Source of the DNA: Gemmatimonadota bacterium
GTDB lineage: Bacteria; Gemmatimonadota; Gemmatimonadetes; Longimicrobiales; Gaopeijiaceae
Direction: 5' to 3'
DNA: 57,515 nt
NCBI GenBank assembly: GCA_009844885.1
Contig: VYAQ01000201.1
Location: 1-57,515, forward strand
In this document: in pieces, positions 46,044-54,339 of the stretch
Numbering within the stretch: the first letter of the stretch is position 1
How the letters are laid out: every line of letters begins with the position of its first letter
Notes under the pieces: model-generated
The model's database searches: none
Seen by the model: the letters and a program-made list of their open reading frames with translations, nothing else
What the model was told of the DNA's origin: nothing
Position numbers and translations under genes: made by a program

Positions 46044-47015
46044 TTAGCCGTCGCGCAACTCGCGAATCGCCGCGGCCAACGCCGGGACGACGTCAAACGC
46101 GTCACCCACGATTCCGTAGTCGGCGACGCCGAAGATCGGTGCGTCGGCATCGCGGTTCACGGCCACGATCACTCCCGAGGTCCGCATCCCGGCGAGGTGC
46201 TGAATCGCCCCCGAGATCGCGACCGCAAGGTACAGTTTGGGTGTCACGGTCTTGCCCGTCTGGCCCACCTGCTCGGAATGCGGCCTCCATCCGGCATCGA
46301 CCACCGCCCGCGACGCGCCCAGCGCGGCGGACTCGCCGAGCGCGTCCCTGAGGTCCTCGACGACATGCCAGTTCTCCGGACCCTTCAGGCCACGTCCGCC
46401 CGACACGACGATCGTGGCTTCGCTGACGTCGATGGCTGCTCCCCGGGACGCCTCGAAGCCAACGACCCTGTAGCCGGGAGACCGATCCGAGGTGTCCGCG
46501 GCGACCGTCTCCATGATCGCATCGCGCGGTGATTCGGCCGCGGGGAAGACGTTGGGCCGAATGGAAAGCAGCGCCGGGGAGGCAACGGCCCGCACCTGTG
46601 CCAGCGCCTTGCCGGCGAACACTGGACGCGTGACCAGAATGCCGCCTGCGTCGACTGCAACGTCCGTGACGTCCGTGAGCAGCGATGTGCCCAGCTTTGC
46701 GGCCACCCGGGGCGCCAGATCCTTGCCTGCCGCGGTGGCCGCGATGACCACGGCCGCATAGTCGCCTGCGCGGATCCGGCCCACCAGCGCGGCGGCCCAC
46801 GCGTCGACCTGGCCGGGCAGGAGATCGTCACCGGCCATGTGCACGATCCGGTCGGCGCCGTAACGCGCGAGCTCGTCGGCGGACGCAGCCGTGGCGGCAA
46901 CCTCTACCAGGCAGCCCAGTTCGTCCGCCATCCTGCGGGCGACGGCAACTACTTCCCGGGACACCCCCGCGAGCGCCTCCTGCTTCGACTCGGCTACCGC
47001 AAGCACATCCGCCAT
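46044..47015 (-). CDS. etfA: Electron transfer flavoprotein alpha subunit
   Basis: A 323-aa FAD-binding subunit. The C-terminal FAD site is clear: [73 protein letters not shown]...[19 protein letters not shown]. The N-terminal half is the ETF domain. With EtfB it collects electrons from acyl-CoA dehydrogenases for the quinone pool. ATG 47015 overlaps the etfB stop by one base (TGATG). The acyl-CoA-synthetase-like gene is in the same operon; no acyl-CoA dehydrogenase is seen in the window. Confidence 0.95.
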
Positions 47016-47764
47016 CAGAGAACCTTCGCCTCCTCGCGCAGAAGCCGCACAAGTTCGGGAACCGCCTCGGGCCCCTCTCCCACGATCCGCCCCTCTGGCC
47101 GCTGGGGCGGATGACGCAGCGCCTCGACCGCAAGGCCCGGCTCCACGGCCGGAGCCGCCTTCTCGGTCAACGGCTTGCGCTTGGCCATCATGATTCCGCG
47201 CAGAGACGCATAGCGCGGTTCGTACCTGCCCTTGGTCACCGTGGCCACGGCGGGGAGGTCCATCTCCACGACCTCCTGTCCCCCCTCCACCGCCCTGCGG
47301 CAGGTCGCCACTCCGTCGCCAACGTCGATTGCCGTGACCGAGGTCGCACACGGCCGTTTCAGCAGTTCGGCCACCATGGGACCCACCTGCTGCTGATCGT
47401 CGTCCACTGCCTTGATCCCGAAAAGCACCAGTCCCGCATCGCCGTCCTTCAACTCGGTGGCGAGCACGCGCGCGGTTGCCCACCCGTCCATCGAGGGATT
47501 GCCGGCCAGGAGCACCGCGCGGTGGGCGCCCAGCGCAAGACCGGAGCGGAGCGATTCGGTCGTGGCCGCGTCCCCGTAGCTGAGCAGCGTGACCTCCCCT
47601 GCACCGGTCTGTTCGACCAGTTGCAGCGCCGCCTCGACCGCAAATTCATCGTAGGGACTGAGCACGTACTTCACCCCGTCCCGAGAGATGTCCCTGCCGT
47701 CGTCCGTGATCCGGATACGGGTCTCCGTGTCGGGAACCCGCTTGACGCAGACGGTGATGTTCAC
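47015..47764 (-). CDS. etfB: Electron transfer flavoprotein beta subunit
   Basis: A 249-aa subunit starting NITVCVKRVPDTETRIRI and containing the AMP/FAD-side segments VKYVLSPYDEFAVEAALQL, LSYGDAATTESLRSGLALGAHRAVLL and VATVTKGRYEPRYASLRGIMMAKRKPL. Together with etfA it forms the heterodimeric ETF. Located 9 bases after the NhaC antiporter gene and fused by overlap to etfA. Normal length. Confidence 0.95.
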   Translation of the reverse strand: MNITVCVKRVPDTETRIRITDDGRDISRDGVKYVLSPYDEFAVEAALQLVEQTGAGEVTLLSYGDAATTESLRSGLALGAHRAVLLAGNPSMDGWATARVLATELKDGDAGLVLFGIKAVDDDQQQVGPMVAELLKRPCATSVTAIDVGDGVATCRRAVEGGQEVVEMDLPAVATVTKGRYEPRYASLRGIMMAKRKPLTEKAAPAVEPGLAVEALRHPPQRPEGRIVGEGPEAVPELVRLLREEAKVL

Positions 47765-47773
47765 GCTTCCTCG

Positions 47774-49192
47774 CTACAGAAACGCCCCCGCGAGCGCGAA
47801 ACACACCGTGGCCACGGCACCGCCGGCGAGCGCATAGGGAAGCTGGGTACGCACATGATCGACATGGTCCGTCGCCGCGGCCATCGAGGAGATGATCGTG
47901 GTGTCGCTGATCGGCGAACAGTGGTCGCCGAAGATTCCTCCGGAGAGTGCCGCCGCCAGGAACGGCGCCAGGTCCAGTCCGAGGCCGCCCGCCGCCGGAA
48001 CGATGATGGGGATCATGATCGCGAAGGTTCCCCAGCTCGATCCGATCGAAAACGCGATTGCGGACGCGACGACGAAGACCAGCGGGAGGAATACGCCGGG
48101 TGACAAGGCCCCCTGCACCACGGTGGCAACGTAGTCGCCCGTGCCCAGCGTTCTGGTCACGCTTCCCAGCGCCAGCGCCAGGAGAAGGATCACGGCAAGC
48201 GGTATCAGGCCGCCGGCTCCGCGCAGCGCGATGCGGGTCAGCTCGTCCAGGGAATACGCCTTCTGGAACAACAGCAGGATCCAGGCCACCGTCAGCGCGG
48301 CCAGGGAGGCCCACAGCACCGAGGTTGAACCATCCCCCGCGGCGAAGTCTCCGTTGCCGGTGATCCACAGCCCGACCGGCATCATCGCGACCAGCACGAC
48401 GATCGGCACGACCATGTTGAGCGCGCGGGGTGCGACCGGTGGCTCGACATTCTGCCCGAGCACTTCCTCATCCATCATCGGGGTCGCTCCGGGCCACAGG
48501 ACTTCGCCCTTCGCCGCCCGGGCCTCCGCGCGTTTCATCGGCCCCCAGTCCATTGTGAAAAGCACCACTCCCAGCGCGAGGGCAACGGCGGCGAACGAGT
48601 AGAAGTTGAACACGATCGATCGCAGGAAGACGGACAGGGTCTCGGTCTGGGGCACGCCCGCCTCGGCAAGCAGCCGCAGGTTGGTCGCGCCCCACGCGTT
48701 CAGCGGTATGAGGATGCAGATCGGCGCGCTGGTGGAATCGATCAGGTACGCCAGTTTCTCGCGGGAATTGCGGTAGCGGTCGAAGAGCGGCCGCGATACG
48801 GATCCGGCAACCAGCACCGTAATGTTCGACTCGATGAAGATGATCACGCCGATCACCCACGCCAGCAGCTGCGCGCGGCGTCCGTTGGTGACCCAGCGCT
48901 TGCGTTCGAGCCAGCCCACGAACCCCGCGACGCCCCCCGACGATCCGACCGTGGAGATGAGGGCGCCCATCACAAGCGTGAACATGATCACCTGCGCGTT
49001 GCCGGGACTTCCGAGCACGCCGACGGTGGATTCCACGGCGTCCATCAGGCCCGCGCCGAAGTTCCAGCCGGCAAGGATCGACCAGGCCAGCCACAGCCCT
49101 CCCGCGAGCGACAGATACACCTGGCGGGTAGCGATCGCCAGACCGATCGCGAGAAGGGGCGGCAACAGGGTAATCCAGGTCGGATCGTTCAT
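47774..49192 (-). CDS. Na+/H+ antiporter, NhaC family
   Basis: A 472-aa inner-membrane carrier with about 11-12 TM helices. The NhaC signature region is present, GIFGDHCSPISDTTIISSMAAATDHVDHVRTQLPYAL, as are the helices FSIGSSWGTFAIMIPIIVPAAGG and the FIESNITVLVAGSVSRPLFD motif. It could equally carry another cation or organic substrate within the ion-transporter superfamily. In the operon it sits between the DNA glycosylase and etfB genes, 9 bases from each. Confidence 0.88.
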   Translation of the reverse strand: MNDPTWITLLPPLLAIGLAIATRQVYLSLAGGLWLAWSILAGWNFGAGLMDAVESTVGVLGSPGNAQVIMFTLVMGALISTVGSSGGVAGFVGWLERKRWVTNGRRAQLLAWVIGVIIFIESNITVLVAGSVSRPLFDRYRNSREKLAYLIDSTSAPICILIPLNAWGATNLRLLAEAGVPQTETLSVFLRSIVFNFYSFAAVALALGVVLFTMDWGPMKRAEARAAKGEVLWPGATPMMDEEVLGQNVEPPVAPRALNMVVPIVVLVAMMPVGLWITGNGDFAAGDGSTSVLWASLAALTVAWILLLFQKAYSLDELTRIALRGAGGLIPLAVILLLALALGSVTRTLGTGDYVATVVQGALSPGVFLPLVFVVASAIAFSIGSSWGTFAIMIPIIVPAAGGLGLDLAPFLAAALSGGIFGDHCSPISDTTIISSMAAATDHVDHVRTQLPYALAGGAVATVCFALAGAFL

Positions 49193-49201
49193 GTCCCTAA
49201 A

Positions 49202-49828
49202 CTACCACCTCGGCGCCTTGACCGCCGGATGCCCGCGGACAAAGAACCTGAGCGGCCAGTCCGCAGCCCGGGACACCCCGATGCGGCCCGAACTGCCGAC
49301 ATCGGCGTCCGCCACGGCCGGGCCCTTCACCAGCTGGACCGGCGGCCCGGCGAGGTCGTGGTAGTTGTGGCTCAGCGTGATGCCGAGCGCCTGCGCGAGC
49401 CGTCCGGGTCCATTGCAAAGGTCGCGCGCCCGTCCGCGCCGTCCGGCCATCGCGTCCAGGCCCGTGGAGGGCTCGAGGGCCCTCACGAGAACCGCGGCCG
49501 GGTCGTCCACCTCGCCGGTCACCACGTTGATGCAGTGATGGATTCCATAGGACACGTACACGTACAGCGTGCCCAGGCCCGCAAACATGGCGTCGTTTCG
49601 CGGCGTGCGTCCCTTCGAGGCGTGTGCGTGCGAGGCCGGGTCGCCCCGTCCGAGATAGGCCTCGGTCTCCACGATCATGCCGCCGGCCTCCACGCCGTCC
49701 ACCGTCGAGACCAGGGTACAGCCGAGCAGCCGTCGGGCCGCCGCGACGGTGTCGCCCGCGAGATACCCCCAGTCCGCGTGGCGGAGGCATGACGTGCGGG
49801 CGTCAGCGCTGCCGGCCCGCGCCTTCAC
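49202..49828 (-). CDS. DNA-3-methyladenine glycosylase (AAG/MPG family)
   Basis: A 208-aa base-excision glycosylase. Family segments: LLGCTLVSTVDGVEAGGMIVETEAYLGRGDPASHAHASKGRTPRNDAMFAGLGTLYVYVSYGIHHCINVVTG (containing the catalytic Glu of ETEAY), VLVRALEP, GPGRLAQALGIT and FFVRGHPAVKAPRW. It removes alkylated or deaminated purines. GTG 49828 overlaps the NYN gene end by 26 bases; a shorter start is possible. The neighbour is a predicted nuclease, which may be no coincidence. Confidence 0.94.
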   Translation of the reverse strand: MKARAGSADARTSCLRHADWGYLAGDTVAAARRLLGCTLVSTVDGVEAGGMIVETEAYLGRGDPASHAHASKGRTPRNDAMFAGLGTLYVYVSYGIHHCINVVTGEVDDPAAVLVRALEPSTGLDAMAGRRGRARDLCNGPGRLAQALGITLSHNYHDLAGPPVQLVKGPAVADADVGSSGRIGVSRAADWPLRFFVRGHPAVKAPRW

Positions 49829-51590
49829 GGGAACGGCGGCCGCGACGGAAGAGCCCCATCAGACCGGATCGTCCCGGTTTCCCGTCATCGCCAACGGCCT
49901 TCTTGCGATCCACCATTGCCGCAGCCTCGTCCGCACCACCGGACGGGGTGTCGGGCGATCCCCGTTTCGCGAGCCTGGACGACCGTGACGATGAGGAGCC
50001 GGACCGGGTTGCGGGAGCCTGCCCGGTCGAGGCTCCCGTCGCGCCACCGGGCTTGCGGCCCGACGTCGGGGAGGTGTTCGCCGACTGCCCGGACCCGTCG
50101 ACCGCCCTTGAGCGCGCCAGGGCCGCGCTTCTCCGCTTGTAGTCGCCCTCCCAGGCGGCCATGACGCTGTTGGCGCGAGCACGAACAGCTTTCCTTACGC
50201 GGTCGGGCTCACGGTGCAGGACCGAGAAAACCTCGGCGCCAAACGCATCGACCAGCCGCTCGGCCGTCTTCACTCCCACGCCCTTGTACCGGTTGGCAAG
50301 GTAGCTCTTGATGGACCCCTCCGTCACCGGAAGCCCCAGGGCCTTCGGGTCAAAGGGTATGACGACCGTTTCACGCCTCGGCTCCACCAACGCAAGGCCG
50401 TAACTTCCATCCTTCGCACGTTCGAGCCTCACAACACCTTGCTTCTCCGCATAGCGCAGAAACTTGCTGAATTTGCCGAAGCCATGCGCCGCTTCGGAGA
50501 AGTTCCTGTCGATTGCCAGCATTCGGCGCTTGACGTCGGAGTCACGTACACGCCCTTGCTGTTTGCCGCCTACCTCCACCACGGCCCGTTTCAACAGATC
50601 CAGCGAAGGGGCGGGGTCCTTTACGGCGCGGCCCGGCTGGGTCGCGGGCGGCTCTCGCACCGCCTGGGCCCGGTTCCCTCCACGCGGGTCGGTGCTGCGG
50701 CCTCCCCGGCCAGCTTGCCGGCGTGCCGGAGGCGATCGTCTCGCCCGCCTGCGGTTCTGCTCGCCATTCTCGGCCGCTTCACCTGATTGTTCAACCGGAC
50801 CCTTCTGCGCGGGGGCGTCTCCGCGGGGGGTGATATGGTATTGCCCGTTCTCCCCCCGCTCGATGTCCAGCAACCCCCTGTTCGCCGCTTCCACGAGGAA
50901 CTTGGAGAACTTCTTGTAGCCCAGATTCCGTTCGTCGAACGATGGCGACATCTCCATGATGACCTGCTTCAGCCGGTCGGAGCGCATCACGTCGCCACGG
51001 GAAGCCATCTGCGCGACCGCCTCTTCCACGCACTGCCAGGCGTCCGGTGCACCGGTCCCGTGCTCGGAGGTGCGGCTCAAGCCCGTGAGCGCGGTGTACG
51101 AGTAGTATTCGTCGCAGTTCTGAACCAGGATGTCCGAACTGGACTCCTGAATCCCGATCCCGATCACGTACTTCCCGTACTCCTTCAACTTGAGGACCAG
51201 GCTGGAGAAGTCGGAGTCGCCCGTGAGAAGGATGAAGGTCCCGATCTCGGGCCGGATAAAGACCAGCTCGATGCCGTCGATCGCCATCCTGATGTCGGTC
51301 GCGTTCTTCTTCGAACTGCCGTAGGCGGGCGCGAAGATGAGGTCGATCGAGGCTTCCGAAAGGGGAACGATGTATTGGGGATAGCGGCGCCAGTCCGCAT
51401 AGGCCCGCTGGACCGTCACCTTGCCCTTGATGATGTCCGAGTCAAGGAGGTTCTTGAGTTCCTTGGCCAGATCACTGCGCATGCCCATCGTGACGTTGTC
51501 GAAGTCGATGAGCAGCGCCGCATTGGGAGCCTCCCGGGAAACGTGTCGACCCGGGTCGGTATGAGGGGTCTTCATATACGGATTCCGCAT
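49803..51590 (-). CDS. NYN-OST-HTH-HhH nuclease-like protein
   Basis: A 595-aa protein. The NYN (PIN-like, LabA) domain is at about 20-170 with acidic residues Asp29, Asp31, Asp99, Asp125 and Asp127 (LLIDFDNV, ATDIRM, TGDSDF). Two OST-HTH/LOTUS domains follow at about 184-256 and 328-402 (SDRLKQVIMEMSPSFDERNLGYKKFSKFLVEA and SDVKRRMLAIDRNFSEAAHGFGKFSKFLRYAEKQGVVRLE). Residues 424-462 are a helix-hairpin-helix unit, SIKSYLANRYKGVGVKTAERLVDAFGAEVFSVL, of a type seen at the start of RecD2 helicases. The tail is Ser/Arg-rich and disordered. Probably a DNA- or RNA-acting nuclease or adaptor. ATG 51590 begins 2 bases after the upstream stop; 51575 is possible. Confidence 0.85.
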   Translation of the reverse strand: MRNPYMKTPHTDPGRHVSREAPNAALLIDFDNVTMGMRSDLAKELKNLLDSDIIKGKVTVQRAYADWRRYPQYIVPLSEASIDLIFAPAYGSSKKNATDIRMAIDGIELVFIRPEIGTFILLTGDSDFSSLVLKLKEYGKYVIGIGIQESSSDILVQNCDEYYSYTALTGLSRTSEHGTGAPDAWQCVEEAVAQMASRGDVMRSDRLKQVIMEMSPSFDERNLGYKKFSKFLVEAANRGLLDIERGENGQYHITPRGDAPAQKGPVEQSGEAAENGEQNRRRARRSPPARRQAGRGGRSTDPRGGNRAQAVREPPATQPGRAVKDPAPSLDLLKRAVVEVGGKQQGRVRDSDVKRRMLAIDRNFSEAAHGFGKFSKFLRYAEKQGVVRLERAKDGSYGLALVEPRRETVVIPFDPKALGLPVTEGSIKSYLANRYKGVGVKTAERLVDAFGAEVFSVLHREPDRVRKAVRARANSVMAAWEGDYKRRSAALARSRAVDGSGQSANTSPTSGRKPGGATGASTGQAPATRSGSSSSRSSRLAKRGSPDTPSGGADEAAAMVDRKKAVGDDGKPGRSGLMGLFRRGRRSREGAGRQR

Positions 51591-51592
51591 CC

Positions 51593-53227
51593 TCAGTCTG
51601 CCGTCAAGCGTGGTTTCGCGTTCGCCTTCGGCGGGCCGGTCCGTGCGGAGGACACCTGGCGGGCCAGCTCCTGCCGCCATATGCCGCCGGAGGCAGTACG
51701 CGGAAAGTCGTCCATGAAACTAACAAAGTCGGGCACCTTGTACGCCGAGAGCGTCGCCGCGCTCCACTCCCTGACTTCGTTCTCCGAAACCACACCGCCC
51801 TCGACGCGGATCACACAGGCGCAGATCGCCTCCCCCAGAATCTCGTCCGATACGCCGACGACCACTGCGCGCGCAATGGCGGGATGGGCCGTCAGGCGAT
51901 CCTCCAGTTCCCTGGGATACACGTTGAAACCACCGCGGATCATCACGTCTTCCCTGCGGCCGATCACATGGAGGCACCCCTCATCGTCCAGCATGCCCAG
52001 GTCGCCGGTCTTCAGAAACCCTTCCTCGTCGAACGATGCTGCCGTCTCTTGTGGCTGGCGGTGATACCCGCACATCACGCCCGGCCCCTGTACACGAATC
52101 TCCCCGACGCTTTCGCCGGGAAGCGGCGTCCCGTCGTCCTCGGTCACGCGCACGGTCGTGCCCTCCAGGGGCCGGCCGACCGTGAACCACCGGGTCGCAG
52201 CGGCCTCCTGGTGCCGCCCGATGGCCAGGGTGGACGCCGCCTCGGTCAGCGAATACGCGATGATCAACGGCACTCCGAAGGACTCCTCCACGCGGCGGGC
52301 AAGCGACTCGCGCACCGGTGCCCCGGCCGCGATGCACAGCCTGAGGGATTCGGGCGCCCGCGAAGGGTTCTCGACGTCCCCAAGGGCCGCGGCAAAGAGG
52401 CTGGGGACCGAGTTGACGATCGTTGCGCCATGGCGCTCCGCCAACGCAAACGTCTCGACTGGATCGCGGTCATCCTGCAGAATCAGACTGGCTCCCTCGA
52501 GCGCCGTGCCCAGGAGCCCGGGACCCAGACCGAAGGCGTGATGGAGAGCGCCGACCCCGGCCACGACGTCACGGGCGTTCATCCCCGTGGCCGCTGCCGT
52601 GCCGGCTGCCGCGTACAGCAGGTTGCCGTGCGACAGTTCGACCCCCTTTGGCTTGCCCGTGGTCCCGAAGGTGTAGACGATCGCGAAGGGCGTCCGAGGG
52701 TCGACTTCCGGCTCCGCGAAGTCGCGTCCCCGACCCGGCGACACGAGGTCTTCCCACTGGAAGATGCGGTCGTCATACCAAAGGTCCTCCTCACCCACCG
52801 TGACCAGATGGCGGAGTCCCGGCAACTCGTTGAGCAGGTCCTCGAAGAGCTGCAGGTAGTCGATCCCGTAGGCGTCCTCTGCCGAGACCGCGCAAACCGC
52901 GCCCGAATGCCTGAGCATGTAACGGAGATCCGGCAGCGTCAGCCGTGGATCCAGGGGGACGACCCGGGCCCCAAGCTTGGCAGCGGCGAACACCGCGACC
53001 GCGAACTCGGGCCATGCCGGAAGCACCAGCGCCACTCGGTCACCTTCGCCGACACCCAGGTTCTTCAGCGAAGCGGCCAGTGACAACGCCTGAGCCTCGA
53101 CTTCCCCATACGACCACGTCGCGTCACCGAAATGCAGGAACGGCGACCCCGGGGCAACGGCTGTGCGCCGGGCCAGGACCTCGGAGACGGTTGGCGACGA
53201 GCCTTCACCCACGCTCCTGCGGCTCAT
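51593..53227 (-). CDS. AMP-binding acyl-CoA-synthetase-like protein with altered motifs
   Basis: A 544-aa ANL-superfamily protein. P-loop A3 reads [19 protein letters not shown]: Phe187 stands where nearly all members have Ser (YTSGTTG). Hinge and later motifs look normal (GFLKTGDLGMLDDEGCLHVIGRREDVMIRGGFNVYPRELED), but the A10 motif reads FPRTASGGIWRQEL, with Gly515 instead of the catalytic Lys (SGK). Family knowledge says that Lys is needed for the adenylation half-reaction. So it may have lost adenylation, or do a different chemistry. ATG 53227 overlaps the aroB stop as ATGA. Confidence 0.88.
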   Translation of the reverse strand: MSRRSVGEGSSPTVSEVLARRTAVAPGSPFLHFGDATWSYGEVEAQALSLAASLKNLGVGEGDRVALVLPAWPEFAVAVFAAAKLGARVVPLDPRLTLPDLRYMLRHSGAVCAVSAEDAYGIDYLQLFEDLLNELPGLRHLVTVGEEDLWYDDRIFQWEDLVSPGRGRDFAEPEVDPRTPFAIVYTFGTTGKPKGVELSHGNLLYAAAGTAAATGMNARDVVAGVGALHHAFGLGPGLLGTALEGASLILQDDRDPVETFALAERHGATIVNSVPSLFAAALGDVENPSRAPESLRLCIAAGAPVRESLARRVEESFGVPLIIAYSLTEAASTLAIGRHQEAAATRWFTVGRPLEGTTVRVTEDDGTPLPGESVGEIRVQGPGVMCGYHRQPQETAASFDEEGFLKTGDLGMLDDEGCLHVIGRREDVMIRGGFNVYPRELEDRLTAHPAIARAVVVGVSDEILGEAICACVIRVEGGVVSENEVREWSAATLSAYKVPDFVSFMDDFPRTASGGIWRQELARQVSSARTGPPKANAKPRLTAD

Positions 53228-54339
53228 CGCCACTTCTCCATCATTCTCACCAGATCATCGACTTCCACCGGGATGGTTACCTCACTCCCTGTACCCACGC
53301 GTCCGAGTTCCTCCAGCCGGACCAGGTGAACGACCCCCGACCGCGTCTTCTTGTCTCTCGTCATCCGGTCGGCGAGCTGCCGGGGCCGCGCCAGGCCGTC
53401 ATGCGTATCGGGCAGCCCGAAGGCGCGCACGAGACGCCGGACCTGGTCGGCGGTACCCCTGGCCGTGACGGACAGTTCCTCGCCGACCCTGGCTTCCGCC
53501 ACCATCCCTACGGCTACCGCGTGGCCATGTGACAGCTTGTAGCCGGAGTCGGCCTCGAGCGCGTGCCCCACGGTATGGCCGAAGTTGAGCACCTGACGGT
53601 GGCCGGCCTCGAATTCGTCGGCCGACACGACCCCGGCCTTGATCTCGACCGAGCGGACCACCGCGCGCTCTACATCCTCCCCGCGTCCATCCAGCAGCGA
53701 CACGGCCCGGCTCGCAAGCCACTGCCCGTAGTCCGCGTCCACGATGACGCCGTGCTTGACCGCCTCGGCAAACCCCTCCGCCCTGGCACGGCGCCCGAGC
53801 GTGACCAGGAAATCAGGATCGGCCAGCACCATTTCGGGCGCGTGGAACGCTCCCACGAGGTTCTTGCCCAGCGCGTGGTCCACCCCCGTCTTCCCCCCGA
53901 CGGATGCGTCGATCATGGCCAGGGTTGTGGTCGGAACCTGGATGAAGGGGATTCCACGCAGATACGTGGCCGCAACGAAGCCCGCAACATCGCCTACCAC
54001 GCCCCCTCCGAGCGAAACCACGCAACTGTCCCGACCCACGCGGGCCTCGAGGAGCGAATCGGTGAGATGCGCCCAGGTCTCCCGAGTCTTGCGGGCTTCG
54101 CCGGCCGGAAACGAGACGGTCACAACGTCGATTCCGGCCGCCACCAGGTGCGCGTGCACCTCGGGGCCCCAAAGTCCCTGCACGTTGTGGTCGGTGATCA
54201 GGGCGCATCGACCCGATGGTGCCGCGATGGCGACCGCCGAAGTGAGAAGTCGGCGCACTCCCCCGCCCACGCACACACGATAGCCGCCAGAGGCGGAACG
54301 AACGGACACCTCGCTGTGCTTTCCCAGTGACCGCTCCAA
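53224..54339 (-). CDS. aroB: 3-dehydroquinate synthase
   Basis: A 371-aa NAD- and metal-dependent enzyme of the shikimate pathway. GGGVVGDVAGFVAATYLRGIPFIQVPTTTLAMIDASVGGKTGVDHALGKNLVGAF is the core signature; RARAEGFAEAVKHGVI and LNFGHTVGHALEADSGYKLSHGHAVAVGM carry metal His and Glu residues. First gene of a seven-gene minus-strand operon. The start is uncertain: TTG 54339 with weak AGG upstream, or GTG 54309, which fits the family N-terminus better. Confidence 0.95.
   Translation of the reverse strand: MERSLGKHSEVSVRSASGGYRVCVGGGVRRLLTSAVAIAAPSGRCALITDHNVQGLWGPEVHAHLVAAGIDVVTVSFPAGEARKTRETWAHLTDSLLEARVGRDSCVVSLGGGVVGDVAGFVAATYLRGIPFIQVPTTTLAMIDASVGGKTGVDHALGKNLVGAFHAPEMVLADPDFLVTLGRRARAEGFAEAVKHGVIVDADYGQWLASRAVSLLDGRGEDVERAVVRSVEIKAGVVSADEFEAGHRQVLNFGHTVGHALEADSGYKLSHGHAVAVGMVAEARVGEELSVTARGTADQVRRLVRAFGLPDTHDGLARPRQLADRMTRDKKTRSGVVHLVRLEELGRVGTGSEVTIPVEVDDLVRMMEKWR

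Follow-up and report, generated by a model that had tools for sequence, protein, structure and literature searches.

Which function is selected in an acyl-CoA-synthetase-like protein whose A10 motif has no lysine? The question was raised by a stretch of 57,515 nucleotides from a Gemmatimonadota bacterium (assembly GCA_009844885.1, contig VYAQ01000201.1; hereafter the window), which is one whole contig of a 4.9-Mb genome. A published comparison of 374 ANL sequences found five invariant residues, a glutamate, a glycine, an aspartate, an arginine and the A10 lysine (PMC6122825). The Lys-to-Ala mutant of CBL showed a 500- to 600-fold loss, and the activity of FadD13 K487A was down by 96.3%, with about 4% left (PMC6122825). 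Here, a residue reported as invariant in 374 of 374 ANL enzymes was found to be repeatedly dropped in one ortholog family under strong selection.

The ANL protein and its motifs

The gene (51593..53227, minus strand) was translated from the ATG at 53227 into a single frame of 544 aa ending in a stop. PF00501 and PF13193, the two ANL domains, together span the whole length of the protein (AMP-binding 261.6 bits with a cut-off of 29.9, AMP-binding_C 65.1 bits with a cut-off of 24.5). The best-scoring NCBIfam model was PRK06187, a long-chain-fatty-acid--CoA ligase, with 355.8 bits, which is below the curated cut-off of 476. An AlphaFold2 model made from a 28-row alignment reached a pLDDT of 79.6 and a pTM of 0.76, the C-terminal domain being of lower confidence. 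The best Foldseek match was 5wm3 (E 1.7e-48), ANL enzymes were matched over the full length, the best VIA row was 4wv3_A (Z 50.0, rmsd 5.5, 496 aligned), and the best 50 PDB matches listed for the model were ANL enzymes. For this predicted structure, the fold search establishes the ANL fold only.

The preliminary description had placed a phenylalanine at the A3 serine and a glycine at the A10 lysine, and both were confirmed by translation and ungapped alignment. In the A3/P-loop motif YTFGTTGKPK (residues 185-194, 52646..52675, minus strand), residue 187 is F (codon 52667-52669) at the position that is usually Ser, and residue 515 is G (codon 51683-51685) within PRTASGGIWRQELAR, in place of the A10 lysine; the whole A10 motif of the window protein, PRTASGGIWRQEL, covers residues 509-521 (51665..51703, minus strand). 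The A3 serine position contacts the gamma-phosphate via a water. The other four superfamily-invariant residues are present as E329, G375, D409 and R424, and the spacing G-34-D-15-R-91-K is identical to that of the Thermus enzyme of PMC6122825. The view that the remaining ANL motifs were intact had to be given up, as A5 reads YSLTE instead of YGxTE (with Ser at that place in 105 of the 185 family rows described below) and A8, formed by R424, E426 and G433, departs at E426 from the published Rx(D/K)x6G (PMC8388817). The window protein thus shares the whole fold, both domains and the Glu, Gly, Asp and Arg residues with ANL acyl-CoA synthetases, but is unlike them in having neither the A10 Lys nor the A3 Ser and in carrying E at the D/K position of A8. 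With Gly at 515 it falls outside the ANL enzymes that adenylate by means of the A10 lysine.

The alignment with close homologues that had been suggested for F187 and G515 showed that the three nearest relatives (90-94% identity) also have F187, together with G or S at 515. Both motifs are ungapped in the alignment of these relatives and of the genus. The three relatives were assembled separately, one of them into a single-contig genome, and since the pattern is common to them it is neither a sequencing error nor a private change; a private mutation was therefore rejected. Nearly all named relatives are metagenome-assembled genomes, which might speak for an assembly or alignment artefact, but the recurrence of the same residues in separate assemblies, including the single-contig genome, and the ungapped A10 alignment within the genus leave that explanation with hardly any probability.

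Loss of the A10 lysine in the ortholog family

Searches at strict cut-offs (E 1e-90 or 1e-80) gave an ortholog in 22 of the 23 genomes from the genus, in 127 of 154 genomes of the order and in 138 of 297 genomes of a phylum draw, the last all within one Gemmatimonadota class. There was one match per genome, with the sole exception of G243, which had a second, partial copy. The alignment of 126 order-level and 60 class-level copies, less one partial copy, contained 185 rows. The record titles of three loci (L208, L218 and L220) name Gammaproteobacteria, and these look like mislabelled metagenome bins.

The A10 position was occupied by Lys in 129 rows, by another residue in 54 and by a gap in two. 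The replacements were Q (29), T (10), R (5), G (3), D (3), S (2), E (1) and H (1). Losses occurred in 13 genera, and copies with and without Lys coexist in five of them (g1, g21, g31, g53 and f5.g71). It had been held that relatives with Lys at 515 would mark the change as a private mutation; such relatives do exist, in nine rows of the window's genus, but 13 rows of the genus are without Lys and the loss is shared. In the genus f7.g85 the Gly before the A10 Lys position is also lost, the pair reading A-Q in 10 and T-Q in one of 11 rows (L252-L254, L256, L257, L260, L261, L263-L265 and L305).

A maximum likelihood tree (quick search, LG+G4), made with columns 187 and 515 masked, required at least 14 changes between Lys and non-Lys. 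One reconstruction, rooted on f4-f6, makes Lys ancestral with 10 losses and 4 regains, several of its branches being poorly supported (15 to 76). Starred branches of the quick-search tree carry ten independent Lys/non-Lys pairs. The A10 column itself changes 21 times, the median over 512 columns being 24. As a control, Lys was found at A10 in all 30 ANL paralogs of the genus, namely 10 genes of the window genome and, picked from a list of matches, 20 copies in 19 further genomes. They form 11 groups at more than 50% identity and are not 30 independent cases, the biggest group consisting of 13 copies of one gene. A compensating lysine near A10 was looked for and rejected, as 43 of the 54 Lys-lost rows have no lysine anywhere at residues 500-530. 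The claim that the protein is specialised is borne out insofar as a clade shares the loss of Lys, which is seen again in other lineages. In the titles and abstract openings of the papers retrieved from the open-licence PMC literature, no description of natural ANL proteins without the A10 lysine was found.

The remaining active-site positions fell into kept and free ones. E329, G375 and D409 are each present in 185 of 185 orthologs with no change on the tree, and R424 in 184 of 185 with a single change. In the Lys-lost rows these four, as well as the Mg2+ residue T186, G302 and G433, are conserved in 54 of 54 each, and the P-loop is nearly so, with G188 in 53, G191 in 53 and position 194 being Lys in 48 and Arg in 6. 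At the A3 serine position there are 15 changes (S 133, A 31, P 13, F 4, E 2, L 1, T 1). It is Ser in 24 and Gly in 6 of the 30 paralogs, which makes a change at A3 less telling than the loss of Lys. Both residues are lost in 26 rows, Lys only in 28 and Ser only in 26, and tree-aware pairs, a low-power test, gave no usable signal of linkage between the two. Position 190 changes 20 times, position 230 11 times, and T328 and T189 seven times each. The hinge residue of A8, at position 426, undergoes 29 changes; K or D stands there in 96 of all 185 rows and in 19 of the 54 Lys-lost ones. G432 (CBL G408) changes 28 times. With the hinge residue and G432 both varying, the proposal that all second-step machinery is kept was rejected.

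Fixed in the family are thus the nucleoside/Mg2+ residues and the A8 Arg, and replaced many times are the A10 Lys, the A3 Ser position and the A8 hinge; adenylation contacts and other contacts were sorted by a published table, which is not a blind test. The safest statement that the alignment permits is that the nucleoside/Mg2+ site is fixed and that two residues, the adenylation lysine and that of the hinge, are free. The Lys-lost orthologs would be naturally occurring ANL proteins in which adenylation is separable from nucleotide binding.

The family is also set apart from ANL acyl-CoA synthetases by a nearly invariant segment, VGEEDLWYDDRIFQWEDLVSPG, with an LWYDD core (residues 144-165; 52733..52798, minus strand). 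W150 is found in 183 and D152 in 180 of the 185 ortholog rows, and neither has a counterpart in the 30 paralogs. The segment is far better conserved than the A10 lysine and would suit a partner-binding site.

Gene neighbourhood and in-place gene loss

The ATG of the ANL gene at 53227 overlaps the stop of the upstream aroB (3-dehydroquinate synthase by Pfam; 53224..54339, minus strand) as ATGA, an overlap of 4 nt. The full frame overlapping aroB, as previously described, was thereby verified, but aroB adjoins the ANL gene only in some families, being directly upstream in 117 of 174 copies overall and only in families f1, f2, f7 and f9. The constant neighbour is a predicted RNase with NYN and OST-HTH/LOTUS domains (Pfam; 49803..51590, minus strand), with its likely ATG 2 nt beyond the stop of the ANL gene. 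In 172 of the 176 ANL copies with enough flank it is the gene directly downstream, in the same orientation. Two of the four misses (G085 and G035) have an adjoining PF01936 match, a third is the partial copy that was excluded from the alignment, and the last, L258, has no such adjoining match. In G123, where the ANL copy is near a contig end, an ANL match but no PF01936 match was found.

A 3-methylpurine-DNA glycosylase gene (MPG by Pfam; 49202..49828, minus strand) comes next in 119 of the 130 loci that could be evaluated and is present in all eight families. Farther downstream on the minus strand, also by Pfam, an NhaC-type Na+/H+ antiporter (47774..49192) is found in families f1 and f7, and EtfB (47015-47764) with EtfA (46044-47021; together 46044..47764) in f1 and two f2 loci. 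Since MPG and NYN are kept across families and aroB, NhaC and EtfBA are not, the constant block is ANL-NYN-MPG.

Residues 434-499 of the NYN+OST-HTH protein gave a weak match to a RecD2 helicase model (26.3 bits against a cut-off of 500), possibly reflecting a shared helix-hairpin-helix stretch. None of the PADLOC defence models was matched by the ANL or the NYN protein at E 0.001, and an anti-phage defence system was rejected as a reading of the locus.

The same two domains as in the downstream neighbour are combined in the bacterial NYN/DUF88 + OST-HTH proteins of PMC2848206, for which that study reports no conserved neighbourhood with known RNA-processing genes. A link between the NYN and ANL genes across one class would be compatible with that report and does not conflict with it. 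By title, nothing relevant to a link of NYN with acyl-CoA synthetases or with Gemmatimonadetes was found in the open-licence PMC literature. The ANL gene is a concrete candidate partner gene for a bacterial NYN+OST-HTH protein.

No ANL match at the cut-off was obtained in 27 genomes of the order, of which 20 are listed by name, and 15 that have NYN, all of family f1, were examined. In ten of them (L326, L327, L329, L333-L335, L337-L340) aroB and NYN are 0.35-0.9 kb apart without an ANL match between them, and the other five (L328, L330, L331, L332, L336) retain ANL fragments or a truncated copy. Fourteen of the 15 assemblies are 1.6-2.7 Mb in size and G065 is 3.3 Mb, several of them being incomplete. 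These in-place losses indicate that the ANL gene is dispensable in some lineages, and the retention of NYN in all 15 that NYN does not require ANL.

Selection and competing explanations

The dN/dS of the ANL gene was calculated by Nei-Gojobori with aroB of the same genomes for comparison. The 11 Lys-lost pairs gave 0.09-0.20, below aroB in 10, and the seven Lys-keeping pairs 0.085-0.182, below aroB in all seven. In another list of 30 pairs, Lys-lost pairs with differences ranged over 0.088-0.205 and Lys-keeping pairs over 0.000-0.241, and it was very close pairs that gave the extremes. The low dN/dS argues strongly that the intact copies are not drifting neutrally, and neither broken frames nor a dN/dS near 1, as expected of a pseudogene, were found. 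The preliminary description was right that this is not random decay, the frame being intact and purifying selection at least as strong as on aroB; as a whole, its interpretation is partly supported. Decay was rejected by dN/dS and residue conservation, and what the in-place losses keep alive is a relaxed constraint, in which the need for the enzyme fades, eventually to the point of gene loss, and the lysine is not maintained. The 15 genomes with NYN and an absent or broken ANL gene would fit this, as would genus g49, which holds both Lys-lost and gene-lost genomes. Against it stand the low dN/dS of the full-frame copies kept, the four other superfamily-invariant residues, conserved in 54 of 54 Lys-lost rows, and the loss of the gene also in genera g51 and g23, whose sampled sister kept Lys, so that we consider such relaxation improbable.

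Scarcely more probable is a protein that carries out the CoA half-reaction only, from acyl-AMP and CoA to acyl-CoA or in reverse, for which the A10 lysine is not used. Mutation of CBL G409 blocks thioesterification only, and the CBL counterpart of G302 may hold the pantetheine tunnel open (PMC6122825); G302 and G433, by position CBL G409, are both fully kept in the Lys-lost rows. The variable hinge residue 426 makes this reading less likely, G432 is not kept either, free acyl-AMP has no known source here, and the P-loop would need no keeping.

The main rival is that the protein still is an acyl-CoA synthetase, in which slow adenylation without the A10 Lys, or with a substitute group, suffices because the substrate has a low flux or is unusually reactive. 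This would be a real possibility, in our estimate, but on balance doubtful. It is favoured by the P-loop, Mg2+ and ribose residues kept in the Lys-lost rows and by EtfBA downstream in f1, which fits acyl-CoA metabolism. Lysine 492 of an amide bond synthetase is presumably the A10 lysine. On that assumption, this reading is also favoured by the K492H variant, altered at a lysine implicated in ATP contact, which was crystallised in the adenylation conformation with AMP-CPP (PMC10804368), and so is it by the residual activity of FadD13 K487A (PMC6122825). The replacements at A10 are, however, chemically unlike one another, no substitute lysine is visible at residues 500-530 in 43 of the 54 rows, and the same-genus paralogs examined all keep Lys.

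We tentatively prefer, at somewhat less than an even chance, a conserved Gemmatimonadota ANL protein with a selected function that is independent of adenylation driven by the A10 lysine, perhaps as a ligand-binding partner of NYN. For a putative ligand-sensing or regulatory role, the latter already proposed in the preliminary description, the observations are gene adjacency and residue conservation. A fixed nucleotide site with a free lysine is the pattern expected if the function needs nucleotide binding and not fast formation of acyl-AMP. Such a protein would still bind nucleotide (ATP or AMP), perhaps also CoA or acyl-CoA, would form acyl-AMP at a very low rate if at all, and may act as a ligand-binding partner, most plausibly of the adjacent NYN protein, which gene order only makes the obvious candidate. 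Against this preference, the P-loop glycines and lysine kept in Lys-lost rows would fit continued use of ATP, the published Lys mutants such as FadD13 K487A are crippled and not dead (PMC6122825), Lys is still found in most orthologs (129 of the 183 with a letter at A10), and NYN is retained by the 15 relatives examined that have lost or truncated the ANL gene. A bolder and rather unlikely form of a partnership with NYN is that the ANL fold was turned into a nucleotide or acyl-CoA sensor for the NYN+LOTUS protein, by which RNA decay in Gemmatimonadota would be tied to the cell's energy or acyl-CoA state; if so, the A10 Lys would be free to vary since adenylation would no longer be the task of the ANL protein.

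The same ANL residue is the target of a known control in the AcsA/AcuA system, where acetylation of the A10 lysine turns off adenylation (PMC11255334). In that study Gln served as an imperfect mimic of acetyl-lysine, and Gln is the commonest replacement in the family described here. The AcsA/AcuA switch is reversible, whereas here the residue is altered in the gene, with T, R, G, D, S, E and H occurring besides Gln.
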